A program made the translations under genes and the position numbers. Under the pieces are notes generated by a model. The model worked only from the letters and a program-made list of their open reading frames with translations. It had not been told where the DNA came from and did no database searches. A stretch of 64,000 nucleotides of DNA from Bacteroidota bacterium (GTDB taxonomy: Bacteria > Bacteroidota > Ignavibacteria > OLB7), in assembly GCA_018266795.1 (NCBI GenBank), contig JAFDZV010000010.1, positions 166,289 to 230,288 of the forward strand, read 5' to 3'. Shown piece by piece: positions 10,055 to 53,204 of the stretch (within the stretch, counting starts at the first letter, position 1; each line of letters begins with the position of its first letter).

Positions 10055-11407
10055 TCAGCGCGAAACGATGATGAACTCCGTCCGGCGATTCAGACGCCGT
10101 CCTTCCTCGGTATCGTTCGAAGCGGTCGGCCGGGTCTCCCCGTAGCCGATCGTGGAGAAGCGGGCCGGCGCGATCCCCCGAAGGGTCATATATCGCTTCA
10201 CGGCGTCGGCTCGTGCCTGCGAGAGCTTCATGTTGTGCAGATGGTCGCCCATGTTGTCCGTAAAGCCCTCGATACGAAGCTTGAGCGAGGGACGAGCCTT
10301 CATCAGTCTGATCAGATAGTCCAGGCTGGCCTGCGATCCCTGCTCGATCACGTACTGATTCGTCTCGAAGCGGATGTTGTCCACCACAAGCTTGCGCCCC
10401 ACTTCCAACACCGCGAAGTTCTTGTGCACAGTAATCCCGGCGTTCGGAATCTTCAACTCCACGCGAATGGAGTCCGGAATCAGATCGGCCTTCGTGCGAT
10501 AGGTTACCGTATTCAACGACGTCATCGTCGAGATGAAGCTGTTCAGGATCTCGGCAAACGGCTTCTCGATATCGAACACCTGCCCTCCGGTGCCGTCGGC
10601 GATTGCGCGATATCCCACGATGGCCGTGGAGACGATGCAGAAGGTTCGCATGTCGTAGCGGGCAAGCAACTGGGTCATCGTGGAGGTCGTGTAGTTGGTT
10701 GTCCCATAGCCATGTTCACCGTACTGATGATAGGGTGCATCGGTGATGAGCACAACGCAACGATTCGCACTGGAGCGAAAATTCATGCTCGTGGCTGCCC
10801 GCAGGGCCTCCAGCGCATTCTCCTTCACATCGCCGCCTCCGCGCGCCTCCAACGCGCCAACCCACCCCTTGAACTCCTGAAGGTTGTCGGTAAGCCAATG
10901 CCGGTCCGCAACGTTGTCATCGAAGGCGATCATGCCGAGACGATAATCGATCCCCTTGGCGGTGAGGCGCGTGGTGAACTCCTCGATGTTCTGCTTCACG
11001 GCATCGATCTTGCTCCCCATGCTGCCGGTCTGGTCGATCAGAAACACGAAGTCCACCGGCACCCGGTTGCTGCTCGTCACCGTGGAGAGCGCAATGATCT
11101 CCTGACGCTGGCCGTTCTCGGTTATAATCACATCGCTCTTGTCGATGCCGGTAACGGCAACGTTGTTGGTATCGAACACATCGAACACAACGCTGATCAA
11201 CGGGAAGCGTGTGATATCGATATTCCGAACGGTGACGCGGAGCGTTGAATCGTGGAGTGCTACGGTGGTAAGGCCCAGCGTTGTGCGAACAACGTTGCTG
11301 TCGGAAGGCTGAGCATCGACGGTAAAGGGTAGGCATCCCCCCCACGCCGCGAGGAGCGTGACGATCAGAATCCACCGACGATAGAGCGCGACGAATCTGT
11401 CGATCAT
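10055..11407 (-). CDS. VWA-domain protein with C-terminal OmpA (peptidoglycan-binding) domain
   Basis: A 450-residue exported protein. The start at 11407 (MIDRFVALYRRWILIV) is chosen because it gives a normal signal peptide cut after about residue 32 (FTVDAQ); the longer frame to 11542 adds an unlikely Gly-rich leader. A VWA domain covers about 115-305 with the metal-site motif DQTGSMGS (125-132) and a later ITDAPYH. An OmpA domain at the end has LRIEGFTDNMGD and LSQARADAVKRYM, the residues that bind diaminopimelate, and ends RRTEFIIVSR. It probably ties a periplasmic protein-binding module to peptidoglycan. It is the last of four same-strand envelope genes; the 350-base gap upstream means co-transcription is not certain. 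Confidence 0.85.
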   Translation of the reverse strand: MIDRFVALYRRWILIVTLLAAWGGCLPFTVDAQPSDSNVVRTTLGLTTVALHDSTLRVTVRNIDITRFPLISVVFDVFDTNNVAVTGIDKSDVIITENGQRQEIIALSTVTSSNRVPVDFVFLIDQTGSMGSKIDAVKQNIEEFTTRLTAKGIDYRLGMIAFDDNVADRHWLTDNLQEFKGWVGALEARGGGDVKENALEALRAATSMNFRSSANRCVVLITDAPYHQYGEHGYGTTNYTTSTMTQLLARYDMRTFCIVSTAIVGYRAIADGTGGQVFDIEKPFAEILNSFISTMTSLNTVTYRTKADLIPDSIRVELKIPNAGITVHKNFAVLEVGRKLVVDNIRFETNQYVIEQGSQASLDYLIRLMKARPSLKLRIEGFTDNMGDHLHNMKLSQARADAVKRYMTLRGIAPARFSTIGYGETRPTASNDTEEGRRLNRRTEFIIVSR

Positions 11408-11765
11408 ACAGTGCTGGCGCCGGACGGTTGTTGCCGGGTTATCGAGACCGGAACGGTTCAATGCCTCAGGGCCAAGTGCCAGGCAGGCGATGGCGCTGCT
11501 GACCTGGACACCGCCCCCTCCTCCCTTCGCATACGACATCATTGAAAATAATAACGGATCTCTGTGCTGAGCCAGACTGAAAACGAAGACTCATCGGCTG
11601 CAGTCACAGAGACCCGTATGCTGTATTGACACGCGGTTGGCACCACACGTTACCGATGACATGATAACGTTACGCGCCGCGACGCCCTGAAGGCCCCAAC
11701 ACCCGGCACTGCTCTGGAGCCTATCGGCTCTGAAGCGCAGGTGGCCGGCTGTCCGATCGGTACCG

Positions 11766-13229
11766 TTAGTCGCCGCTGATCTTGAACCGAAGGATCGGCG
11801 AGATCATGAAGAAGGAACGCTGCTCCCATGGTGCCGGGCTGTCGCGAAGGATCGGCGTGGAGTACTTCGCCTCCACGAAGAGCCAGTTCGGAATCACCGG
11901 GATGTAGCCGGCAAGGAGCAGGTTGCGGTTGGCAAGCTGCGCGCTGAGGCCGAAGGGGAAGCCGGACTGATTCATGTACTCCACCTTGGCATAGATCCAG
12001 TCCTGTACGTCCGTGGGATGGATCAGGCCGTTGTAGATCACGCCGTCGGCGAGCTTCTCGGTATCCGCGGGGATACGCACCGGCACCAACGCCGATGCCG
12101 GACCGCCAGGCACAGGCAGCCGGGCAAACATCCCCTTGGCAATCTCCTGGTACGATGCACCAACACTGATGCGGAAGAAGTGCTCGTAATCATTCAGCCA
12201 CGTCTCCCAGAAGAACATCCCCTGCGCAACGGTACGGAGGAAGTATGCCTCCTTGATCTTTGTGAAGCGTTGCGAGGGAGGATCGATCTTCGCGGAGTCG
12301 ATCCCCCACACAACTGAACCATCGTTCATGTTGGCGAGTTCCGGCTCCAGTTTACTGAACGGCACTTCCGCGTTCACGGCAAAGCCGATGTCGTTCACCT
12401 GCGGGAGGCGGTAGTCGATATGCGCGAACGCCTTTGCGCCGAGCGATCCGTTGAGCTTGCGCGCGGAGATCGCTCCGCCCAGGAAGTCATTGCTGGACTG
12501 GCCGATCTTCAAACGGTATGCCGCACCGAGCTGAACGGTAAGAATATCGGGAACGCCCTTGGCGCGGAGCTCGACGTCGGTGAGCGGAATGACGGGGTAG
12601 GTGATCATCCCCTTCGCCTGACCGGAGGACCAGAAGTGGTAGCCGATCTCGTCGTTGCCGATCCAGTGTTCCAGGCGGGCGCCGGTGGAGCCGATCAGCA
12701 CAACCTGACGGAACGCGGATGCGGCAACAAACTGCCGCGCGCTTCCCGGCTGCATCACGTAACCGATCCTTTCCGGCGGCTTGGAGTTCACCGGCGTCTC
12801 CGGCTCGATCATGAGGTGCGCATAGTTGCGCTCGAGAATCTGCTGGTACAGACCATCTCCAAGATTCTTGCGGATAGTCTGCCCTCCGCTCAGCACGGCC
12901 GACGGGCCAACGCGGATGGAGAGAAGATCAGGCAGATCTGAGGAGCCGGGCTTCTGGAACGCCGAGGTAACGACCATCGAGTCCGACTCGCTTACCTGCT
13001 GGCCTTCGAGCTTGAAGTAGGTGGCGATCTTGACCTTCAAGTCGGCTTCAAGAATTTTCCATCGCGGCAGGTAACGCTCGATATCCGGATCGGTGGTCGA
13101 GGCGTCCGTGATCATCTTCTGGATGTCCTGCTGCGAAGGGGGCCCGGTTGGCTGCGCAACCACGGGAACGGCGTGGAAGCTTAAGGCTATAAGCACAATC
13201 GCAATTGCGATCAGCGTGAGCTTTCTCAT
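11766..13229 (-). CDS. Predicted outer-membrane protein, family unknown (paralogue-like C-terminus with next gene)
   Basis: A 487-residue exported protein. The start at 13229 gives the signal peptide MRKLTLIAIAIVLIALSFHAV ending VVAQ, with AAGGA upstream; the longer frame contains an improbable Cys-rich leader. The rest is rich in alternating hydrophobic strands (for example WLFVEAKYSTPILRDSP and FFMISPILRFKI), suggesting a C-terminal beta barrel or sheet. The segment FPFGLSAQ ... YSTPILRDSPAPWEQ resembles PWGIGLQ ... YFTPLNPKERPETHPWE at the end of the upstream neighbour, so the two probably share a C-terminal module. No known family is recognised. It lies 158 bases downstream of that neighbour, same strand. 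Confidence 0.75.
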   Translation of the reverse strand: MRKLTLIAIAIVLIALSFHAVPVVAQPTGPPSQQDIQKMITDASTTDPDIERYLPRWKILEADLKVKIATYFKLEGQQVSESDSMVVTSAFQKPGSSDLPDLLSIRVGPSAVLSGGQTIRKNLGDGLYQQILERNYAHLMIEPETPVNSKPPERIGYVMQPGSARQFVAASAFRQVVLIGSTGARLEHWIGNDEIGYHFWSSGQAKGMITYPVIPLTDVELRAKGVPDILTVQLGAAYRLKIGQSSNDFLGGAISARKLNGSLGAKAFAHIDYRLPQVNDIGFAVNAEVPFSKLEPELANMNDGSVVWGIDSAKIDPPSQRFTKIKEAYFLRTVAQGMFFWETWLNDYEHFFRISVGASYQEIAKGMFARLPVPGGPASALVPVRIPADTEKLADGVIYNGLIHPTDVQDWIYAKVEYMNQSGFPFGLSAQLANRNLLLAGYIPVIPNWLFVEAKYSTPILRDSPAPWEQRSFFMISPILRFKISGD

Positions 13230-13387
13230 GCTTTGTCTATCCTTGGCTGTAATTGTATGCGTTCGAGGGAGCGAACCTGCGCCGCGGTGCCAGGTGGGAG
13301 ATATGAATGATCCCGAACCGGGCCGGCGCATGCAACAGCACATGAGGAAGGCGCAGGCCTCCCGCATATGCCATCAAACCGCGCATG

Positions 13388-15190
13388 CTAGAAGTGATAC
13401 TTCACGCTGGCCGAGGGAACCATCAACGACGGATTCTCCCACGGATGAGTCTCGGGGCGCTCCTTCGGATTGAGCGGCGTGAAGTACTTCCCTTCGATCT
13501 TCAGATCCAGCCTCGGCGTTACCGCGAACTGAATCCAGACGTTGCCCAGAATGGACTGATCGAGGTACTGCAGGCCGATCCCCCATGGTGTTCTCTGCCC
13601 CGTACGCATAAACTCGATCTTGCCGGAGATTCCGCCGAACGTCTCGCTCTTCTCCTTCTGAAGAATCGTGGCCCGCTGATCGGGCGCGGGATTGGTATCC
13701 TGCGGGTCGTAGCGTCGGGTATAGGTATCGACGCCGTAGGCCGTGCCGCCGACCTTCAGACGGAACAGATTCTTTGCTCCCGGATCGGCATAGAAGCCGA
13801 ACGAGTAGTAGAGCTGTGTCGCATAGCGGATGATATACCCACGCTCGGCGATCGGGTCCGTAGTCTCACCGGAGAGCATGATGCTCTTGGCATTCGATTC
13901 GCTGAAGGTATAGCTGAGGTAGAAGTTGAAGAGTCCGGAATTGGCGAGCAGAGGAGCACTGAAATCGCCGGAGACAGCCAAGCCGTAGCCGCCCAACAGA
14001 CGTTGGCGATTCGAACCAATGCCGCTTGTCTCGATCGTGCTGTCGCCGAATCGGAACACCGGGAGCACCGCTCCGATCTTGATGTTCTCCAGGATGGCGT
14101 TCAGCGTCATGCGGCCTCCCCAGACCGACGGGATGTTGATCTCATCGAAACCGGTCTTCAGTTCCACGCCCCAGTCAGGATCGGGGAACGGAAGCGTATC
14201 GGATGTGGTCTTGTATGCCATGAACGACGCAAGCACGTCCGAACCAACGGAGATCTCGTACGGATACTCGTACGCGTTCGGCATTGCTGCGGCTCCATCC
14301 TTCCCGGGCAGAGTAGGATCGATGTTGAGGTTGGACGCAATCATGCGTGTAGAGTCCTGCGCACGGAGCGGACGGCCGTTGCTCACGCTGAGAAGAACGT
14401 ACGGGTACTTGTCCTCATCCAGATAGCGGGTGTTGCCAACGCTGCGCGGCACGATCTGGATCTCCGCAAGATCGCGAAGCGTGAACATCTGGTTGGCGAG
14501 AAACGGGCTGTTGCCGGTAAACACGGCCTCGCGCATCTCGTCGTACAGGGTGGGATCCAGCTTCTTGACATTGTCGTACAGATCGATGCCGCCCCACGTG
14601 GCTCCCTTGAGATTGAAGCCGCCTCCGGGCGCATCCTCGATGCCGACCAATGCCATCAGCAACGGCTGCGAGCGATCGCGCGAGGTGATCAGGAAGTAAT
14701 CCTTCGGGATGTTCTTGCGATCGTTGATGATCTTCTTCGCGAGGTTGAGCACCTGGTCGGCAACCTGCGGGTCTACATCATCCACCTGCTTGCTGAAGTT
14801 GTCGGCAAGCTTCTCGATGAACTTCTGCACATCCTTGCCGGCAGCGGTAGAGGCGATGCGCATCACGTTCTGGTAGAGGTTTTCCGCATCGGTACCATCG
14901 GTCAGGATGTCGACACGATGCTTCTCGATTTCAACGCTGTCCTTCGATGCCATCTGCATCTGCGGCACAATCAGGCGCTGCTTGAATTCATCCTGCAGCC
15001 GATAGATCGTCACATTCGTCCATTTGATTTCATCGATCTGCCGCGCGAGGTTCGCGAGTGATCGACTCAGACGCTGCTTTGTCTTGACGGTATCAGGCTC
15101 CGCACGGAGAGGAAGGGTGGGAGCGAGAACGATTCCCCAGAGACAGAGAAACGTCACGCTTTTCACCAACCGGGCGATCTGGATCCTCAT
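13388..15190 (-). CDS. Predicted outer-membrane beta-barrel protein, family unknown
   Basis: A 600-residue exported protein with signal peptide MRIQIARLVKSVTFLCLWGI ending about residue 30 (LPLRAEP). Residues about 35-150 look helical (LSRSLANLARQIDEIKW and KDVQKFIEKLADNFSKQ), perhaps a periplasmic coiled-coil stalk. From about residue 300 the pattern changes to amphipathic strands and the chain ends PSASVKYHF, with the terminal aromatic residue typical of Bam-assembled barrels. I do not recognise the family. Downstream is the protein with a similar C-terminus; upstream, after 368 bases, is the GldM-like gene. A role in an outer-membrane complex is inference from context only. Confidence 0.75.
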   Translation of the reverse strand: MRIQIARLVKSVTFLCLWGIVLAPTLPLRAEPDTVKTKQRLSRSLANLARQIDEIKWTNVTIYRLQDEFKQRLIVPQMQMASKDSVEIEKHRVDILTDGTDAENLYQNVMRIASTAAGKDVQKFIEKLADNFSKQVDDVDPQVADQVLNLAKKIINDRKNIPKDYFLITSRDRSQPLLMALVGIEDAPGGGFNLKGATWGGIDLYDNVKKLDPTLYDEMREAVFTGNSPFLANQMFTLRDLAEIQIVPRSVGNTRYLDEDKYPYVLLSVSNGRPLRAQDSTRMIASNLNIDPTLPGKDGAAAMPNAYEYPYEISVGSDVLASFMAYKTTSDTLPFPDPDWGVELKTGFDEINIPSVWGGRMTLNAILENIKIGAVLPVFRFGDSTIETSGIGSNRQRLLGGYGLAVSGDFSAPLLANSGLFNFYLSYTFSESNAKSIMLSGETTDPIAERGYIIRYATQLYYSFGFYADPGAKNLFRLKVGGTAYGVDTYTRRYDPQDTNPAPDQRATILQKEKSETFGGISGKIEFMRTGQRTPWGIGLQYLDQSILGNVWIQFAVTPRLDLKIEGKYFTPLNPKERPETHPWENPSLMVPSASVKYHF

Positions 15191-15558
15191 GTGGTTGTTC
15201 CGTGTGTTGAGAGTAAACGAATGCCAGAGTAGAACGATACTGGGCGCTGCCGGGCGGCAACATAGGAAAGAACGGGGTTACTCAGAAGCGGATTGTTACG
15301 GAGCGAGGCAACGCCTCCGAACCTGTACGCTTCACTGAGAATGACGACTGTGGGCCACTCATTGGAAGGACATTTACGGCACCAACCCATGTATCCAATG
15401 ATGCGCCTCGATGTCAGTGCGTCGCTGTGACCGGCTCTCTCAGCTTCCGCGAGCTGAGAAGAGTACGGGGTGTCAATGCCCGGGCACGCCGACTGGGGCA
15501 TCAGCCGCCCTCTTGCATCGCAGTAGAGGGCGGCCGTGCACACATCCTTCGATCTCCG
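15191..15558. other. Intergenic stretch with two hairpins
   Basis: Between the GldM-like gene and the barrel gene. It holds GCCGCCCTCT (15504-15513) / AGAGGGCGGC (15525-15534), ten perfect pairs just past the GldM-like stop but without a T tract, and a smaller TCTCAGCT/AGCTGAGA hairpin near 15432-15456. The first may end or process the upstream transcript on the minus strand. No gene seen. Confidence 0.45.
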
Positions 15559-17484
15559 TTAGCGCGGTTGCACCGAAACGGTAATGGTCATCGCCTCCTG
15601 CTTCGCTTCACCACGCCCTTGCAACTGAAGATCGACATTGACGGTCTTGTTACCGGACGTAAGATCCTTGTTCTTCAGGAGTCGGGCGAAATCCTGCCCC
15701 TTGAGGGTCAGGTAATATTTGTCGCCCTCCTGTTCCAGATTCAGAACAAGGCCGTACTGGGCGCAATCATTACAGTTCGCCTGCACACCAACCGGTGTCT
15801 CAGTGTTGCCCAGCCGCTGGATGGCTCCGAACTGCGGCGACTTCCACTCCTTGGCTCTGGGTGAAAGAATGGCAACAAAATCCACCTGTTCCGCGACAAG
15901 CTCCGGCTTGCGATAGCCAACGCTCATCTTCTTCGATTCGAGCCCGATGACGGGCGCCGGGGTTACATTCTGCTGGTTGCAGAGAAGCATCACCCACTGG
16001 CTCGAGTCCGCCGTGCCTCCTGGCTTCCAAAAGACCTTCGTCACGATATCCTCGGGCTTCATTCCTTCCGGAACCATCAACGCCTTCTGAACATCCGGAG
16101 GAAGCGCCTTGAAGTTAGTTCCGACACGGTTCATCACCTGAACCCCCTTGAACCATACAACCGTCTGGTAATGGTCGGCAGGGATCTGCGGATTGTTCCA
16201 GTCGCTCGACGGATCATAGCTTACGCCGTACGTCGCACTCAGGCCTCGCCATGCGTCCACACCGGTCCGGACAATCTGCTGATCTTTCATACGCTCTGCA
16301 CGCAGACGCGGCCTGTCCACCGAAAGGATCTTCTCGTCCGTCGCCGTACCGGCGGGTGTCGTTGCCCGAACCGTCAACTTGTTGTCGGCAACCTCAGGTT
16401 TGTCCACCACGGCATAGTACTGGTTGTTCTTCGCGTCCTTGGCCTCCATTCGTGCAGGAGCCATCACGGACTTGTTCGCCTCGTTCGGCCCAAGCGAAAC
16501 GACTACGCGGAACGGTGCGACGTTGAGCCAGTAGATGGTATCGCGCGGAGACGCGATCTGCGCGAACGGCTGCGGCGGCGGCGGCAGATCGGGCTTCACA
16601 ACCTTGATGTTGATGGCCATGCCTCCCTTGTTTTCCGCGAGCGTCTTGTAGGCGTCCGGCGTCAACAGCTTCTCAATGTACTTCTCCACCTGCGATGCCT
16701 GGCTGTCGCCAGGAGCCCCGGCCTGCTTGCGGAGCACCTTCTGCACCTGGCGAAGCTGCTTCACTGTCAGCTTGATATTGCCGATGCGAATCGTATCGTC
16801 GTCCTTGGGATCACCGGTCACACCGAGGATCTTGTTCGTCGAGGATGCAAACCGCAGACGGTACCAGCCGGAGCTGGCACTGTTCGGACTGAAGTTCACA
16901 CTGAACACCTTCACCCGATGCCCCTGTGCAACCTGCTGGCTGGTCTGCTCCTGATTCAGGATGAAGTACTTGCCCCCCGCACCGCTTGGCCCGGCAGGAG
17001 CATTGCCCTTCACAACCACAGGAGTGTCGTATCCACCAACGTCGGTACCGATCTTGGCTTCGAAGAAGGGGTCGGCAAGATCCAGCGAGTCGACCGGCAG
17101 CTGATCCTCCGGCTTGGTGATGTTGGGATCGAAGGAGACCAGATAATCGAGCTCGGAAACATCATCACCCTTGATGGTCTTTCCGTTCCGAACACTCTGG
17201 GCCTTGGCATCGCCGACCGCAACAAAGACATTGTAGTTGCGTTCGTTGTTCTTGGCTTCCTTCGCGTCCAGAACAATGTTGTCCTTCTGTGAGGCCGTGA
17301 TGCCGGTAGAACCCGAGCCGGTCTGCAACTGCGACAAGATCGTCTGCACGATCTGAATCGCCTGCCTCTGCTGGCGCCGCAGGCCTTCTTCAGCCTCATC
17401 ACGCTCGATGAAGATGATCAGCAGTTCTAGAATAACGGCAAGGTACAGCACAAAGTAAACCTTGCCAGCTCCGCCTTTCGACAT
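15559..17484 (-). CDS. GldM/PorM-like single-pass periplasmic protein (tentative)
   Basis: A 641-residue protein with one N-terminal membrane segment (about residues 8-27, VYFVLYLAVILELLIIFIE), a short helical stretch, and a long periplasmic part. The plan, MSKG start, one helix, then several Ig-like domains (for example from PFAQIASPRDTIYW and LSVDRPRLRAER), resembles GldM/PorM, the T9SS motor-shaft protein, but the characteristic RQKMINMMYLV start is absent, so this is an analogy and not a firm assignment. A CNDC pair lies near residue 580. AGGAGAAAGG precedes the ATG. It heads the series of envelope genes to 10055. GldK, GldL and GldN were not found in this window. An unrelated lineage-specific envelope protein is the main alternative. 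Confidence 0.5.
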   Translation of the reverse strand: MSKGGAGKVYFVLYLAVILELLIIFIERDEAEEGLRRQQRQAIQIVQTILSQLQTGSGSTGITASQKDNIVLDAKEAKNNERNYNVFVAVGDAKAQSVRNGKTIKGDDVSELDYLVSFDPNITKPEDQLPVDSLDLADPFFEAKIGTDVGGYDTPVVVKGNAPAGPSGAGGKYFILNQEQTSQQVAQGHRVKVFSVNFSPNSASSGWYRLRFASSTNKILGVTGDPKDDDTIRIGNIKLTVKQLRQVQKVLRKQAGAPGDSQASQVEKYIEKLLTPDAYKTLAENKGGMAINIKVVKPDLPPPPQPFAQIASPRDTIYWLNVAPFRVVVSLGPNEANKSVMAPARMEAKDAKNNQYYAVVDKPEVADNKLTVRATTPAGTATDEKILSVDRPRLRAERMKDQQIVRTGVDAWRGLSATYGVSYDPSSDWNNPQIPADHYQTVVWFKGVQVMNRVGTNFKALPPDVQKALMVPEGMKPEDIVTKVFWKPGGTADSSQWVMLLCNQQNVTPAPVIGLESKKMSVGYRKPELVAEQVDFVAILSPRAKEWKSPQFGAIQRLGNTETPVGVQANCNDCAQYGLVLNLEQEGDKYYLTLKGQDFARLLKNKDLTSGNKTVNVDLQLQGRGEAKQEAMTITVSVQPR

Positions 17485-45097: not shown

Positions 45098-48000
45098 TCA
45101 ATGCTGCAACAGCATCTGCCGCGCCATCCTGAACTTGCCGCTGATGAGCTCGTAGGTGTACAGTCCGCTCGGAAGATCGCCGGCATCGAACAGATAATCG
45201 TGATCGCCGGCAGCCTCCGCCTCGTCGATAATGGTGCGAACCAGGTTGCCTCCAGCGTCGTACAGATTCATCACGACACGATCCGGAGCACCGATGCGGT
45301 AGCGCAGCAGTGTGGTGCGCGCAAACGGGTTCGGCACATTCACGCTCAGGCTGTAGCCGTTGAGCAGATAGATGCCGCCGGTGGTATCGCAGCCGAACGC
45401 GTGGAATCGTCCGGGCTGCGTAACCGGAGTCACATCGGATGCGCCGAGCACGAGTGAGGCGGGATCGATCGTGATATCCGTATCCCAGTGATGCCCGAGC
45501 AGCACTTTGAAGGGAACGTTCACCAACGTTCCGGAAGTCTCGCCGGCACGAATCGTTCCGGTGATCGTCAGCTCACCGGCTTTCTTCTCGCTCATCGCAA
45601 CACCATCGCTCACTGTGCCGAACTCCCACGAGGCCTCATGCAATGCATCGTGCCGATTGCCGATGCGGGGCATCAGAAGATCGGCTGCATACTTCAGCGT
45701 CATCGTGTACGCAAGCGCACCGTGATAGGAGCCCGGCATGATGGTGGCTCGCACGGGAACGACGATCGTATCGTTCACCCACGCGCTGGTGCTGTCAACC
45801 GTCAGCGCAAGCTTCCACTCATCGTTCGGATTGCAGACGTCGCCGTTCAGCTTGATCGAGATCAGTTCCGGCGCCGAGCTGCGGATCTCCAGCATCGAGG
45901 AAGCCGCGGCCGTGCCCGCCGTGTATCGAATCTCGTAGTGGATCTGCCCGCCGTTGGGCTCAACAATTCCGCTCACCGGGCCAATCAGCGTGAAGTGAGA
46001 ATCGAGCCCCACGGGCGGCCCCGTGATCGAAACGGGGCAGGCGCCGGTGTTGGTAACGGTAAACTTGATCGTGGAATCGTGACCCGTTGGTATACAGCCG
46101 AAGTCGAGCGCCGAGACGCTGGCAAGCAGGTGCCCGGTGGCGCCAATGCCTCTGAGCGGAAGTGTCAGCTGTACATTGGCATCGTTCACGATCGTCAGCA
46201 GACCGGAGGCCGAACCTGCCGCAGTTGGATGGAACTTGAAAGCTACACGGAGCGTTTCGCCCGGCTCAACGGTATGCGGGAAGACCGGCAGACCCGAAAC
46301 AACCCGGAAGGGTTCACCAAGCCCATCGAGACGCATGATCGTTACCGGAACGGAACCGTTGTTGTAGATCAACACGTCGGCAACGTCGGACGAATCGCCA
46401 ACGCAGGTCTCGCCGAAGCTGAGCACGGGAAGATCCACCTGAAGCCCGCGCTCGGTGCCATGGCCGTTCAAGAGAACCATGTCGGTGAACGCGGGATCGC
46501 TGCAACTCAGATGGAGTGTGTCGAACAGCTCCTCCGGCTTCGTCGGCGCCATATGCACGTACAGCGTCTCCTGGGTGCCGGCTCTGATGCCGGTGATGGA
46601 ATTCTCCAGTACGAAATCCATCGTGCCGAGCATCGCCGTCACCGGTCCGCCGTCGCCGTCGCCGATGTTGCGAATCACCACGGGCATTGCGGGTGAATGC
46701 TCCGAGACAAGCGTAGGTGCGAAGGTGATCGTGCGCGGGAAGTTGTCGGGAACGATCACTACGTAGCGCGCCGTGCGCATCGAGGCCGAGCCGCGGAGGG
46801 CAACGCCTGTATCGAGCGCACAGTTGCCGCTGCTCAACGTAAACCCGAGCACGGTCTGGAACTCTCCCTGACCGCCCGGGCAGAACTTGACGGTGATGGC
46901 TGCGCTTGCCCCGGGCGCCACTTCACTCGGGATCGGCGGCACGATCGTGAACACCGGACTGCTCGATTGCAGGTTGCCGAGATGCATAACGCTGGCCGCA
47001 CTCAGGTTGTGCACCAGAATGGTTCGCGTAACGCACGTGTCGCTCCCCTTCAGGTCAACCGTTCCGAACGCGACGGTGGCCGGCATCTCCGGATGCGGAA
47101 GCGCATTGGTGCTCCGGATCGTGAGCGCCATGACCGAATCGATGCCGTCGCCGATCAGGCGCACAACCGTGCCGGCCGGATCGAACTGCTTCATGCAGAA
47201 ACGCAGACGAACCGATTGCGATTTGCCGTTCGCGATATCCGTACCCGGCTGCGGCGAAAGCAGCGAGACGTCAACCGCCGCAGTGTCGCGTTCAACGCGC
47301 TCCAACGTAAACGGAGCGTCGCCTGCATTGCTCACGGTGATCGTGGTGTCGATACAATCGGACGGGCAAAGCTCGCCGAGATCGAGAACCATCGAACCGG
47401 TTCCCCAACGCCCGCTGATGCCGCATCCGTACAGCTTGATGCGCTGTTCGGCAATCCACGGAATGTTGGTGTTCATCACCAGATCCGCCTCGAACGAACC
47501 GGTATCTCGTGGCGTGAACTGAACCTCCACGGACTGGCTGGCGCCCGCCTGCACAACCATCGCAGTGTTGCCGGAGAGCACCCGGAAGGACGCTGCATCA
47601 GGTCCCTCGACGTGGACGTTGGAGAGAACGAGGTTGCTGATCTGCGCCGTGTTCTGAATCGCCACAACCTTCGTTGTGGTGGTACGATAGCGATGGCAGC
47701 CGAATTGAATCGTGTCCGCAGCAAGAGTCATGCGCGGATAATCGATCACATTGCCGGCTGCGGGGGACATCACCCACTGAGGATCGAAGGCGAAGTCAGC
47801 CGAGGATGGGCTGGCCACTCCCTGCATCACGAAGAAATATGTTCTGCCCCCGTCCACGTCGGCGAACGTGAGCTTGTAGCTCCAGCGTCCGGCGGAATCG
47901 GTGCGCGTGGCATAGGAAGTCCACGGCCGCGCTTCCGCCTTCTTCCAGATCAGGATATCGCTGTTGGGGATACCGTAACCGGTGATGGAGCTGTCCACAC

Positions 48001-50878
48001 GCGCCTGCAGGAAGCGGCTGGAAGGGGACGACGGGCCGTTGTAGTAGGCGTTGGGAACAAGCGTTCCGCTTCCGGGCTTTGCGGCTGTCACTCCATCGAT
48101 CCTGAGGCGGCCATCGCCTCCATCGCCGCCGTTGGCGCCGTTGTCACCGCCAACTGCCCTGCCGCCGCGGCCGCCTGTCGCGCTCAGTTGGCCGCCGGGT
48201 CCGAACGAGATGGAGTCATGTGACGCAAGCAGGATGGAACCGCCTGCACCTCCTCCGCCGCCGGAGGAGTTCAGGGAAATGCCGCCAAGGCCGTTCGATC
48301 CATTTGCCGTGATCTTTCCCTGCACACCGAGTGTGCCGAAGGAGACAATGCTGATGCCGCCGCCGCCGGAACCGCCAACCGAGGTTCCGCCGCTCGAATA
48401 GCCGCCGCCGGCACCGCCGGAACCGCCTGCAATCGGCACCAGTTCACGGCACCCGACCACACGGCCGCCATTGTGCAGTTCGCCGCCGCCGCCATCGAAT
48501 CCGTCCTGACCTGCCGATCCATTACTGCCGCCGCCGCCGCCCGAGGGAAAGCCGCGCGGACGATTGTTCGCGATGCCGGCACTCCCTCCACCAAATGCAC
48601 CGTCGGTTGACTCGACCGGAGCCGCAGGCGAGATCCGACCGAACATGCCGGACGCACCGAACGGATGTCCGGTTCCGCCGCCGGCCGGAGCAAAGACCCG
48701 TGCGCTGGTGGTAACATCCACATAGGTCATCCCACCGGGTACCCCGTTCAGCGCGCCGCCGCCGCTTGTAAAGCCGGAGTGCATGCCGCCGCTGCCGATG
48801 CTGGAGCCAAGAAGGGTATCGGCCTCACCGCTGCCGCCACCGCCGGTATAGCCGGAGCCGCCAGCCGAGAGGTATCCGCCGGAGCCGCCGCCGCCGCCGC
48901 CGGGACCTGCGCAGGTTGTCTGGCTGACACTGTCGCTGATTGCAGAAACGGAAAGGACCGCATCGGCATTCACGAGAACGGGGCCCTTCGAGAGGATGGT
49001 AACCGGCAGAAACCCCTGATTGCCCGGCGTCCGAGGATCGCAATCGCCGGTATCGATTGTGTAGACACCGGAGCGGAGGATCAACGAGTCCACGACAAGC
49101 ACACCGCGGCGCGAGCGCATGCCCGTTCCGATGGTGCCGCCGCCGCTCATGGCGCCGAGGTGGTGCGGGGTCACGATGAAGAACGTGTCCGCATTGCTCA
49201 GAACGTTTCCAACGCGGATGTGCAGCGGAACCGCTCCCGGTTTCGCATCCGGCTTCACGAAGATCATGCTGGAGATCAGGCGACCATCCCAGCTTACGAC
49301 GGATGGGCCGATCACGATCCGGCTTTGATCGTCGGAATTATCGAGCTCCAATTGCCCGGAGCCAAGGCCGTCGAGGCCGAAGCCACCGAACTCGGTTGGC
49401 CGCGCATAGGCTTCCACCACAACACTCATCCCCGCTGCCGCCGCGTCCGGATGCAGATATTGAATCGTTGGGTAGAGCGAGGCGCGTTCGATGGTGGCAA
49501 TCTGATAGATGCCTCCCCCCTTGGACGCGCTGCCAACGAGATTCTCGCCGGCGATCACCACGCGCGAGCCATTGGCAGCAACCCGCACCTCATTCCCCCA
49601 GACAAAGGACTGATCCCGGAACCGGGCGTTCACGTCCACGGACGAATCCACCGAGCGCCATGCTTCGTTCGGAAGGGACTCGGTCTTCTGCAGCTCCGCG
49701 TAGCCAACCCGGGTGGGCTTTGCGGATGGCGTCACGGTCCATGCAACCGAGACGCGATTCGACGCATTGAAGGCGAGATCGAAATCGAGCGGTACGCCCT
49801 GCAACGGCTGCGTGAGCGGGCGCGCATCTCCGAGGTACGTTGCATTGGCGGAACTTCCCTGCGAGTCCAGGCGAGTGGAGTCCGCATACACATACAGCAA
49901 GCTATTGGGCGCCGTGGCCGGGCCGCTGATGTAGGGCATGACCAGATGCATCCCGCCATCGTTATCCAGCGCAAGCTTCACCCGCACACCGTTTGTCGTG
50001 TCGCGGTCCAACGCACTGCCGAACGGCATCGTCTGCAGCCAGTGGCGCTGATCGAAATCCCCACCGGCCTTCTGCTGGATCAGGTAAAGACTGCCGCGTC
50101 CGCCCACCACATTGCGCACGGCCACAACGGCCCGGTGGTCGCGGCCGATGGCGATGGAAGGATGCCCCACCACGCAGTTGCCGGAACACTGGAACGACGT
50201 CACTTCCTCGGTCTGGAAATCCGCCGTGGACCAGTGATAGATCGTCTTCTGCTGCGATGTGGACTCCAGCCAGATCACGTGCGCAACGCCGTTGGAGTCC
50301 ACCGCCATGTCGAACGAGAGCGGCCCGTTGCCGGGCAGCCCGACCAGTTCCTCCGGACGCCCGAACATGTGGCCGACGTTGGAGGTATAGTACAGACGCG
50401 GATACCCCTGATTGTTGGCGATGTAGAGCAGATGGATGGTGCCAAGACGATCCACGAGGAAATCCCACGGAGTGGAATTCAGGTCGGGTGCGTAGACGGT
50501 GCCGGTAAGAGTGTCGGTGGCCTGAATCGGAGCGCAGAAGACGCCGGTGGCATCGTTGGAGTAGAAAAGCTGAATGCCGGCGTTCGCTCCCTTGTCCGAA
50601 TTCCAATCCGCTCTGCTGGCCCAGCTTGCCTGCGAAGCCCAGACGACATGGGAGTGGCCCCAGCCATCGATCTGAACGCGTGCGCCGAATCTGTTGTAGA
50701 TCCCGCCGGAACGTACGGCAACAGGCCTCCACCGCCCCTGCTGCGCCTGCGCCCATGAAGAAGGGAACAGCACCGTCAGGAACAGAAATAGAGCAGCAGC
50801 GAACAACCGTGACGTGCACAGCACGCCACGTGATGTTCTACCGCAGGCAGTTGCAGTATGAGTATGGGCGTAACGCAA
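45098..50878 (-). CDS. Giant secreted protein with Gly-rich core, choice-of-anchor-D repeats and T9SS sorting domain
   Basis: A 1,926-residue predicted type IX cargo protein. The signal peptide ends near SSWAQAQQ (about residue 45); the frame opens with TTG at 50878 and a GTG at 50824 is equally possible. Residues about 46-600 are strand-rich and propeller-like. Residues about 659-939 are extremely Gly/Ser-rich (runs such as GGGGGSGGYLSAGG), resembling polymer-like domains in adhesins. From about 1060 to 1690 there are repeated Ig-like choice-of-anchor-D modules (FGTVDLKGSDTCVTRTI, FGETCVGDSSDVADVLI, FGCIPTGHDSTIKF). A cohesin-like domain follows (about 1690-1820). The last 85 residues are a type A sorting domain: VNVPNPFARTTLLRYRI, MNLYDAGGNLVRTI, LPSGLYTYELISG. 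Expected on the cell surface or shed. Confidence 0.93.
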   Translation of the reverse strand: MRYAHTHTATACGRTSRGVLCTSRLFAAALFLFLTVLFPSSWAQAQQGRWRPVAVRSGGIYNRFGARVQIDGWGHSHVVWASQASWASRADWNSDKGANAGIQLFYSNDATGVFCAPIQATDTLTGTVYAPDLNSTPWDFLVDRLGTIHLLYIANNQGYPRLYYTSNVGHMFGRPEELVGLPGNGPLSFDMAVDSNGVAHVIWLESTSQQKTIYHWSTADFQTEEVTSFQCSGNCVVGHPSIAIGRDHRAVVAVRNVVGGRGSLYLIQQKAGGDFDQRHWLQTMPFGSALDRDTTNGVRVKLALDNDGGMHLVMPYISGPATAPNSLLYVYADSTRLDSQGSSANATYLGDARPLTQPLQGVPLDFDLAFNASNRVSVAWTVTPSAKPTRVGYAELQKTESLPNEAWRSVDSSVDVNARFRDQSFVWGNEVRVAANGSRVVIAGENLVGSASKGGGIYQIATIERASLYPTIQYLHPDAAAAGMSVVVEAYARPTEFGGFGLDGLGSGQLELDNSDDQSRIVIGPSVVSWDGRLISSMIFVKPDAKPGAVPLHIRVGNVLSNADTFFIVTPHHLGAMSGGGTIGTGMRSRRGVLVVDSLILRSGVYTIDTGDCDPRTPGNQGFLPVTILSKGPVLVNADAVLSVSAISDSVSQTTCAGPGGGGGGSGGYLSAGGSGYTGGGGSGEADTLLGSSIGSGGMHSGFTSGGGALNGVPGGMTYVDVTTSARVFAPAGGGTGHPFGASGMFGRISPAAPVESTDGAFGGGSAGIANNRPRGFPSGGGGGSNGSAGQDGFDGGGGELHNGGRVVGCRELVPIAGGSGGAGGGYSSGGTSVGGSGGGGISIVSFGTLGVQGKITANGSNGLGGISLNSSGGGGGAGGSILLASHDSISFGPGGQLSATGGRGGRAVGGDNGANGGDGGDGRLRIDGVTAAKPGSGTLVPNAYYNGPSSPSSRFLQARVDSSITGYGIPNSDILIWKKAEARPWTSYATRTDSAGRWSYKLTFADVDGGRTYFFVMQGVASPSSADFAFDPQWVMSPAAGNVIDYPRMTLAADTIQFGCHRYRTTTTKVVAIQNTAQISNLVLSNVHVEGPDAASFRVLSGNTAMVVQAGASQSVEVQFTPRDTGSFEADLVMNTNIPWIAEQRIKLYGCGISGRWGTGSMVLDLGELCPSDCIDTTITVSNAGDAPFTLERVERDTAAVDVSLLSPQPGTDIANGKSQSVRLRFCMKQFDPAGTVVRLIGDGIDSVMALTIRSTNALPHPEMPATVAFGTVDLKGSDTCVTRTILVHNLSAASVMHLGNLQSSSPVFTIVPPIPSEVAPGASAAITVKFCPGGQGEFQTVLGFTLSSGNCALDTGVALRGSASMRTARYVVIVPDNFPRTITFAPTLVSEHSPAMPVVIRNIGDGDGGPVTAMLGTMDFVLENSITGIRAGTQETLYVHMAPTKPEELFDTLHLSCSDPAFTDMVLLNGHGTERGLQVDLPVLSFGETCVGDSSDVADVLIYNNGSVPVTIMRLDGLGEPFRVVSGLPVFPHTVEPGETLRVAFKFHPTAAGSASGLLTIVNDANVQLTLPLRGIGATGHLLASVSALDFGCIPTGHDSTIKFTVTNTGACPVSITGPPVGLDSHFTLIGPVSGIVEPNGGQIHYEIRYTAGTAAASSMLEIRSSAPELISIKLNGDVCNPNDEWKLALTVDSTSAWVNDTIVVPVRATIMPGSYHGALAYTMTLKYAADLLMPRIGNRHDALHEASWEFGTVSDGVAMSEKKAGELTITGTIRAGETSGTLVNVPFKVLLGHHWDTDITIDPASLVLGASDVTPVTQPGRFHAFGCDTTGGIYLLNGYSLSVNVPNPFARTTLLRYRIGAPDRVVMNLYDAGGNLVRTIIDEAEAAGDHDYLFDAGDLPSGLYTYELISGKFRMARQMLLQH

Positions 50879-51029: not shown

Positions 51030-53204
51030 TTATGGAGTCTGAAGGGTAATACGCACCATCCTTGAGAGTAGTCGGCCTTCCGGAAGGTTGTTGTTGAACA
51101 GCTCCCTCTCGTTTCCAAGTCCGAGAACCGCAACCTTGTCCGTCATCGCCTCACCATCATGTTCCTTGATCGATCGCAGCGCAGCCACAACCGCGCGGGC
51201 GCGATCCAGCGAAAGCTGCCGGTTGCGATCGGGATCGCCCACGCGATCGGTATAACCCGCCACGGTCACCGTAGTTGCAGGTCCGATCAGCCGGGCGATC
51301 GCAAGAAGCTGAGCGGAGTGCTGCGGCTGCAACTCCGAGGAGTTGTAGTTGAAGCCTACGAGATTGAACTCGGCAACAGCCGAAGGCCGGTCGCTCGTTC
51401 CCGGCACACGCTGACGTTTCCGTTCCACGATTCTGAATGTGCCGGAGGCCGAGGCCGTGTCGCCGTCCGTATCGCGAATCACCACACGATAGCGAATGGG
51501 CGTCAGATCACGATTGACGCGCATATCGCCCAGCGACCAGCGCTTCACCTGATCGAACGTCCCCTTCTCACCACCTCCGGAGAAACGGAGCAGTTCCTTG
51601 CTCCCCTGTTCCACCGTGACATACCAACCGGCAAGCTTGCTGAACGACGTGTCCAGAATCGCCCTCGGCATGAACCGCACCGCAGGCGGCGACGCGATCG
51701 TGGCCACACGGCGAATCGTCACCGGCTGAGCCAGGGTCTCGTTGCTGAACCGGAACTCCACGCGGCGATTCTCCACAACCCCTTCATGCGTCTGCTCCGG
51801 CGAAGCGCTCGCTGTTCGGCTCTCGAACCGCATAACGATTCGCTGGGGCGGAACATGCCACGTCGTTGCCAGATAATTCGCTACGGTCTGCGCGCGCGCC
51901 AGGCCAAGACGCTCCGCCTCGCCGTTCTGAACCTCGTCCGCCGAAGCGGTCCCGACCAGCGTCAGCGTACACGCGGGATCGGTCTGCATTCGTTCGCCGA
52001 CAACATTCAGATTCTGCCAGTGAATATCGAGCGGCGTGATATCCACCAGCGAATCAACATGGAAGTGTGCAGCACGTTCGCGATCAGGAAGCCGTACGTA
52101 ACGCTCGGGAATCTCCGCGCTGCTGCTGTCGAAGAACACGTAAGGAATCATGGGAACCGATTCCATCCACGGAGATTCCTCGATCTCGATTGTCGGGTCC
52201 TCCTGCTCGCCGCCTGAGCCATCGATTGCCCGGGCGGTGATCATCGCCCGGATGGGAGGCTTGGCCCGCGCCGGCCGTCGCGTTGACGGCGTGTCCGGAT
52301 GGGACACCCGTGCGGGCTCGGGATTGGTCGACGCCGCAATCGGTTCCGGGCGACGCCCCTCCGCCGACAGATTGAACGATAGACCGATCGAGGCCTGAAG
52401 CCCGATCTCGCGCCACGATACGTTGCTCGCAATGGAGCCGAACTGCACCAGGCCACGAACTTCCGGGTGCAGAGCAAGCCGATAGCCGAACGGAATCACC
52501 GCGCCGATCTCGAGATCGACCCCCGGAACAAGCCGTTTGAAGGAAACCTGCGTAGGGTCACCGCAGGTATGCTGTGCGGAATCGTTCACGAAGAACCGGG
52601 CGTAGGAGGGCTCCAGCACCTCATCCGTGGTTTCCTGCGTGGAACCGAGCGCCACCACCAGCGACGGAGCGATCCCGAGGCGCAGGCCGTTCACGGGCTC
52701 CCACGCCACTCCGGCGGCAAGCCTGATTGCGTGGACGGCCGCGGAGAAGCGCTGCTGCTTGCTTACCACAACGGAACTGTCCGCAGGCCATGTTTCGTCG
52801 CGCGCCTCGAACGTGGTAACCGGCGAGGTCAGCTCCCGCTGTATCGTGCCATAGCCAAGGCGCGATGTAATCCAGAAATTGGGGTGCGATTGCAGGGGTG
52901 TCTCGAACAACAGTTCAGCGGCGGCCTGCGAGCGGTTCGATCCGTCGAATCGCCCGCAGGCGGAGCCCAACTGATAGATATCGAAGGATGTATTCTGCCG
53001 CATCGCAACGTAGGCGGCGGCAATCCCGATTCGGAACGGTCTATCAACAGTATCGGCGTCCGGCGCCCGTTGTTGATCAGGCGCCGAGGATGCCGGCTGC
53101 GCTGGAGATTGAGCAAGGGGTGAAGCCACGAGTACGAGCCCCGTGGCCAAGCTTCGAATGATATTGCCCCAGCGCCACCCCGAAAACGCGGGGATTGGCG
53201 TCAT
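51030..53204 (-). CDS. Outer-membrane protein with two OmpA domains around an Ig-like domain
   Basis: A 724-residue exported protein. The signal peptide covers about residues 1-35 (IIRSLATGLVLVASPLAQSPAQ). Residues about 55-285 are strand-rich and could be a small barrel (FNLSAEG end). After a Pro/Arg-rich linker come a first OmpA-like domain (about 365-500: SSAEIPERY, LTLVGTASADE, LGLARAQTVANYL, VVENRRVEFRF), an Ig/FlgD-like domain (about 510-610), and a second OmpA domain (NYNSSELQPQHSAQLLAIA, VAGYTDRVGDPDRN, LSLDRARAVVAAL). The second has the canonical diaminopimelate-binding residues; the first is less conserved. Its start overlaps the upstream gene by four bases, so it is coupled to the sigma factor operon. 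A peptidoglycan-anchored envelope sensor or structural role is likely. Confidence 0.88.
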   Translation of the reverse strand: MTPIPAFSGWRWGNIIRSLATGLVLVASPLAQSPAQPASSAPDQQRAPDADTVDRPFRIGIAAAYVAMRQNTSFDIYQLGSACGRFDGSNRSQAAAELLFETPLQSHPNFWITSRLGYGTIQRELTSPVTTFEARDETWPADSSVVVSKQQRFSAAVHAIRLAAGVAWEPVNGLRLGIAPSLVVALGSTQETTDEVLEPSYARFFVNDSAQHTCGDPTQVSFKRLVPGVDLEIGAVIPFGYRLALHPEVRGLVQFGSIASNVSWREIGLQASIGLSFNLSAEGRRPEPIAASTNPEPARVSHPDTPSTRRPARAKPPIRAMITARAIDGSGGEQEDPTIEIEESPWMESVPMIPYVFFDSSSAEIPERYVRLPDRERAAHFHVDSLVDITPLDIHWQNLNVVGERMQTDPACTLTLVGTASADEVQNGEAERLGLARAQTVANYLATTWHVPPQRIVMRFESRTASASPEQTHEGVVENRRVEFRFSNETLAQPVTIRRVATIASPPAVRFMPRAILDTSFSKLAGWYVTVEQGSKELLRFSGGGEKGTFDQVKRWSLGDMRVNRDLTPIRYRVVIRDTDGDTASASGTFRIVERKRQRVPGTSDRPSAVAEFNLVGFNYNSSELQPQHSAQLLAIARLIGPATTVTVAGYTDRVGDPDRNRQLSLDRARAVVAALRSIKEHDGEAMTDKVAVLGLGNERELFNNNLPEGRLLSRMVRITLQTP

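Follow-up and report, generated by a model that had tools for sequence, protein, structure and literature searches.

The DNA analysed here, which we call the window, is a stretch of 64,000 nucleotides from a Bacteroidota bacterium (Ignavibacteria; OLB7; assembly GCA_018266795.1, contig JAFDZV010000010.1, positions 166,289-230,288 of the forward strand). Window positions 10055-17484 hold four co-oriented open reading frames on the minus strand, here termed A, B, C and D, all of which we recovered as an earlier note, made from the sequence alone, had described them. The features of the locus are as follows:

A, 15559..17484, minus strand: 641 amino acids; N-terminal transmembrane (TM) helix followed by a periplasmic chain of Ig-like domains; no known family
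A residues 1-35, 17380..17484, minus strand: nearly invariant segment containing the TM helix
B, 13388..15190, minus strand: 600 amino acids; signal peptide, N-terminal region, and C-terminal homologue of the C barrel; last residue F
C, 11766..13229, minus strand: 487 amino acids from the likely start M47; after the signal peptide, a periplasmic alpha/beta domain (about 33-141) and a FadL/PorV-class beta-barrel (155-487)
D, 10055..11407, minus strand: about 450 amino acids from the likely start M46, with the open reading frame reaching 11542; signal peptide, VWA domain, C-terminal OmpA peptidoglycan-binding domain

The listed reading frames of C and D are over-long: alignment of homologues and the signal peptides place the start of C at M47 (13229) and that of D probably at M46 (11407). 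The gaps between successive genes from A to D are 368, 158 and about 358 bp. Pfam and NCBIfam scans returned no family match for A, B and C; D has a VWA and an OmpA domain. The single-pass protein with Ig-like periplasmic domains is A, which AlphaFold models as a string of Ig-like beta domains behind a single TM helix at the N-terminus (mean pLDDT 78). The barrel-like protein ending in an aromatic residue is B, with the C-terminus ...KYHF, and the related outer-membrane protein is C, its homology with B resting on a profile comparison (hhalign, 142 columns, E 7e-15). In the AlphaFold model of C a confident alpha/beta domain (approximately residues 33-141 of 487) precedes the beta-barrel. Profile searches of solved structures with A and C gave nothing convincing. 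Two other minus-strand genes of the window deserve mention: one (45101-50878) encodes a probable cargo of the type IX secretion system (T9SS), 1926 residues long, in which HYDIN/choice-of-anchor D repeats and a cohesin domain are combined with a C-terminal T9SS tail that scores below threshold; the product of the other (51033-53204), of 724 residues, has its OmpA domain at the C-terminus and is a further envelope-anchor candidate.

To assess conservation we used two sets of genomes. In a sample of 198 genomes from the phylum, relatives of A were found in 20, all within the class of the window, and most of the neighbourhoods show A, B, C and D in this order. A scan of named genomes yielded 80 loci, labelled Candidatus Kapaibacterium, Ignavibacteria, Chlorobiota and similar MAGs. 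The A-B-C-D order is kept in 57 of them, 54 by HMM and three (L140, L161 and L213) by tblastn; 14 of the remaining loci are cut by contig ends, and three loci (L150, L153 and L157) have A-B-C without D. Median gaps in the conserved loci are 36, 36 and 83 bp, shorter than those of the window locus. The wide gaps of the window (158-368 bp) could by themselves suggest that the four genes lie together by chance, but 54-57 loci from several families retain the order with short gaps at protein identities of 25-35%, which refutes this explanation. The adjacency that the earlier note had proposed to check across Kapabacteria and Ignavibacteria is thus kept. Directly upstream of A we found no conserved gene in the A-D loci, with the exception of seven named loci in which a GldL-like gene (see below) occupies this position. 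A small protein (F12) encoded upstream of A is exported and rich in cysteine, and it does not resemble GldL.

GldM/PorM, which forms a proton-driven 2:5 complex with GldL, consists of a single N-terminal TM helix and periplasmic beta domains, and A has the same topology both by sequence and in the AlphaFold model. Across 53 sequences residues 1-35 of A are nearly invariant (K8, Y10, F11, Y14, E20, E27, R28 and D29 strictly so), as compared to a mean column identity of 31%. We read this combination of an almost frozen TM segment and a drifting periplasmic part as a sign that the TM helix is packed inside a partner. The label 'GldM-like' given to A by the earlier note is supported by this architecture and by the gene context described below, but not by tests for GldM identity. 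A and its relatives gave no match to the curated GldM/PorM models (TIGR03517 and the Pfam GldM domains); in profile-profile comparison (hhalign) the N-terminal score against GldM was 12.8 versus a control mean of 12.3, with 56 of 150 controls scoring as high; and the fold search, which the note had also proposed, was unspecific for the A model, dominated by generic immunoglobulin chains, with GldM not among the matches listed. On these results we do not file A as GldM and instead argue for a machine that works like GldLM. The same genome also encodes, on contig C44 (L031:9189-10349), a 386-residue exported protein that has no TM helix and aligns as a homologue with A residues 306-638 (37% identity); it amounts to the C-terminal half of A encoded as a gene of its own.

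A candidate partner for the TM helix of A is found in two distant genomes (L049 and L050), where an operon encodes a 174-residue protein with two TM helices, an A-like TM protein of about 205 residues whose start matches the A profile (E 1e-10 and 5e-8), an exported protein of about 365 residues and two B/C-like pairs. When the two-TM protein was used as a query, all 20 sampled genomes with A were found to contain such a GldL-like gene, usually in two to three copies. In total GldL-like genes occur in 27 genomes, all within the class, from which 49 genomes were sampled. In the seven of these that are without A, the GldL-like gene is followed by an A-like TM gene. In one genome of another family GldL-like genes head GldL-like/A-like/B/C operons, with B and C matching the window profiles at E 8e-30 to 2e-38 in L106 and at 2e-19 and 2e-38 in L107. 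The GldL-like genes of the window genome are found outside the contig of the window, and the reported absence of canonical GldK, GldL and GldN from the window was borne out. Many GldL-like proteins carry extra N-terminal TM segments, and Pfam and NCBIfam scans of GldL-like proteins and their operon partners returned no family. Many of the same genomes also carry a second, shorter GldL-like type (about 325-345 residues; L113, L087, L115, L118 and similar), whose neighbours differ (F24, F23).

Like GldL/PorL, the GldL-like family has two TM helices, the second of which (TM2) contains a conserved glutamate; this residue, E84, is invariant in 40 of 40 sequences, as are Y35, G37, A38, L41 and R48. 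The profile-profile score against canonical GldL (17.1) was within the range of window-shuffled controls (mean 15.6, sd 4.0, maximum 29), and the weak alignment has a sensible register in which the TM2 glutamates are aligned. In the Flavobacterium GldL the TM2 glutamate, E49, is essential, and its protonation controls the contacts between the GldL and GldM helices and the conformation of GldM (PMC8986121). The TM helix of A contains a glutamate of its own, E20, which is invariant in A but not in all A-like proteins (it is an asparagine in L106), and the TM2 glutamate of the partner is therefore the better candidate for a proton site.

The genomic context links these families to type IX secretion. 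The window genome contains SprA, PorV and many T9SS sorting tails, and SprA is present in all 49 sampled class genomes. Canonical GldM (TIGR03517 and the Pfam GldM domains) had no match in the window genome or in the 49, the canonical GldN model found nothing in the 49, and GldK had no match above the cut-off in them. Conversely, none of 51 genomes with a GldM match contains a GldL-like gene; this complementarity follows phylogeny and is thus suggestive rather than independent evidence. SprA occurs with no detectable GldL-like gene in 22 of the 49 class genomes, and many SprA genomes outside the class also lack a match to the GldM model. In L237 and L238, from another class of the phylum (family f25), SprA is present and GldL and GldM match the canonical models weakly; other divergent T9SS motors may await description. 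A search of a library of open-licence papers found none that mentions type IX secretion, Ignavibacteria and GldM together.

More specific links come from neighbouring genes. In 12 genomes of four families a long GldL-like gene is directly followed, on the same strand, by a gene for a protein of 1793-1938 residues. Six of these proteins were scanned and matched PorU sortase models with E 2e-41 to 9e-76, and wherever Pfam was run they showed a Peptidase_C25 match well above the cut-off. Since all six fall below the PorU equivalog cut-offs, we call them PorU-like and go no further. In genomes with A, the long GldL-like genes are the ones followed by the PorU-like gene. In addition, the window genome has a second module. 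It is made up of another GldL-like gene, a gene for a TM protein in which the same YFVLYL segment recurs, and two more genes that belong to no known family. This module clusters with PorV (contig C28, L082:5519-10490 and L082:582-1688), and the same order is seen in a relative from the same family (L084).

Taken together, these results indicate that A-B-C-D probably encode the greater part of a machine that spans the envelope and functions in the manner of the T9SS motor. In more specific terms, we see a slightly better than even chance that in Kapabacteria and Ignavibacteria type IX secretion, or some process coupled with it, is energised by a proton-driven, GldLM-like machine whose components in the periplasm and outer membrane are encoded by A-B-C-D. 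This proposal builds on topologies, conservation, gene linkage and the modelled folds of A and C: the order and short gaps kept in 54-57 loci, the frozen TM segment of A, a GldL-like partner that is present in every genome with A and sometimes adjoins it, and the invariant TM2 glutamate, as in GldL E49 (PMC8986121). The tie to type IX secretion is supported by the PorU-like gene after the long GldL-like gene, by the second module near PorV, and by the presence of SprA, PorV and sorting tails in the absence of GldM and GldN and of any GldK match above the cut-off. Arguing against a GldLM-like T9SS motor are the 22 class genomes with SprA and no detectable GldL-like gene, the lack of homology to GldL or GldM above shuffled controls, the short and weak matches to GldN, the unspecific fold search with A and the PorU-like scores below the equivalog cut-offs. 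The suggestion of the earlier note that the four proteins form a trans-envelope machine or a T9SS accessory is thus supported in part, through conserved adjacency, the GldL-like partner, the links to PorU-like and PorV genes, and SprA with sorting tails.

By analogy with GldLM, the proteins would assemble into one complex in which the GldL-like subunits form a ring around the TM helices of A, and protons passing the TM2 glutamate would make A turn or shift. Through its arm of Ig domains A could then pass the force on to B and C, whose periplasmic domains might stand in for the GldKN ring or for PorP-type proteins. D would tie the assembly to peptidoglycan, and the complex as a whole would power secretion.

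Since the window genome contains two modules, A-D need not be the T9SS motor and may power a related but different task. A-B-C-D could be a paralogous trans-envelope motor, serving for example gliding or outer-membrane upkeep, with the second module near PorV powering the T9SS. The two GldL-like genes of the window genome and the up to three in relatives fit this explanation, but the sole GldL-like gene of a genome can be of the A type, as in G164, which has one GldL-like gene, A-B-C, SprA and sorting tails, and the long GldL-like genes that precede the PorU-like gene are those of genomes with A; we consider it credible yet unlikely. Still less probable, in our judgement, is that A is a true but extremely divergent GldM, that the two-TM protein is a true GldL and that the GldK/GldN ring is present beyond the reach of the models, so that the T9SS core would be an ordinary one. 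The shared topology, gene adjacency and TM2 glutamate, the sensible register of the GldL alignment, and the SprA genomes outside the class that miss the GldM model, together with the weakly matching GldM of L237 and L238, would all agree with such a core, but the scores do not rise above shuffled controls, no GldK match in the class passes the cut-off, and A is followed by B and C rather than by GldN. Comparison of B and C with GldN (hhalign, run without shuffled controls) gave short, weak matches (30 columns, E 0.0043; 15 columns, E 0.0098), and by sequence neither protein convincingly resembles GldN. Finally, the OmpA domain of D, like that of Pal, might point to a system of the Tol-Pal or ExbBD type in which D is a Pal-like anchor. 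This is highly improbable, since neither A nor the scanned GldL-like proteins match the MotA_ExbB or ExbD domains, and the window genome has a separate MotA_ExbB gene.

Going one step beyond the GldLM-like machine that we favour, we tentatively entertain the possibility that the whole GldKLMN engine has been replaced in Kapabacteria and Ignavibacteria by a distinct, possibly independently evolved machine made of a GldL-like ring protein, A, B/C and D. If so, the T9SS would be a translocon driven by more than one kind of motor. With SprA, PorV and sorting tails throughout the class and the canonical motor and ring genes undetected, the A-D locus and its GldL-like partner provide candidate families for the powering of secretion. 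If our reading is right, one more entry joins the few ion-driven envelope motors on record, and it shows which features such motors keep, namely the TM2 glutamate and a frozen TM helix, and which of their outer-membrane parts are exchangeable.

Compared with known systems, D has the OmpA peptidoglycan-binding domain of the PorE-type T9SS anchor, differing from it in its VWA domain and in matching the PorE model on the OmpA domain alone, with 68 bits versus a cut-off of 600. Similarly, C shares the barrel fold of FadL-class channels, its best structural match (Z 14.3), and of PorV (Z 12.2), and differs in its extra N-terminal alpha/beta domain and in having no sequence match to them. With regard to the GldL-GldM (PorL-PorM) motor, A and its partner match no model and show no profile homology above controls, many GldL-like proteins have extra N-terminal TM segments, and B, C and D stand in place of GldK and GldN. 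What is shared with that motor is a two-TM partner with an invariant TM2 glutamate, a single-TM protein with periplasmic beta domains, adjacency of the two genes in part of the lineage, and genomes equipped with SprA, PorV and T9SS tails.
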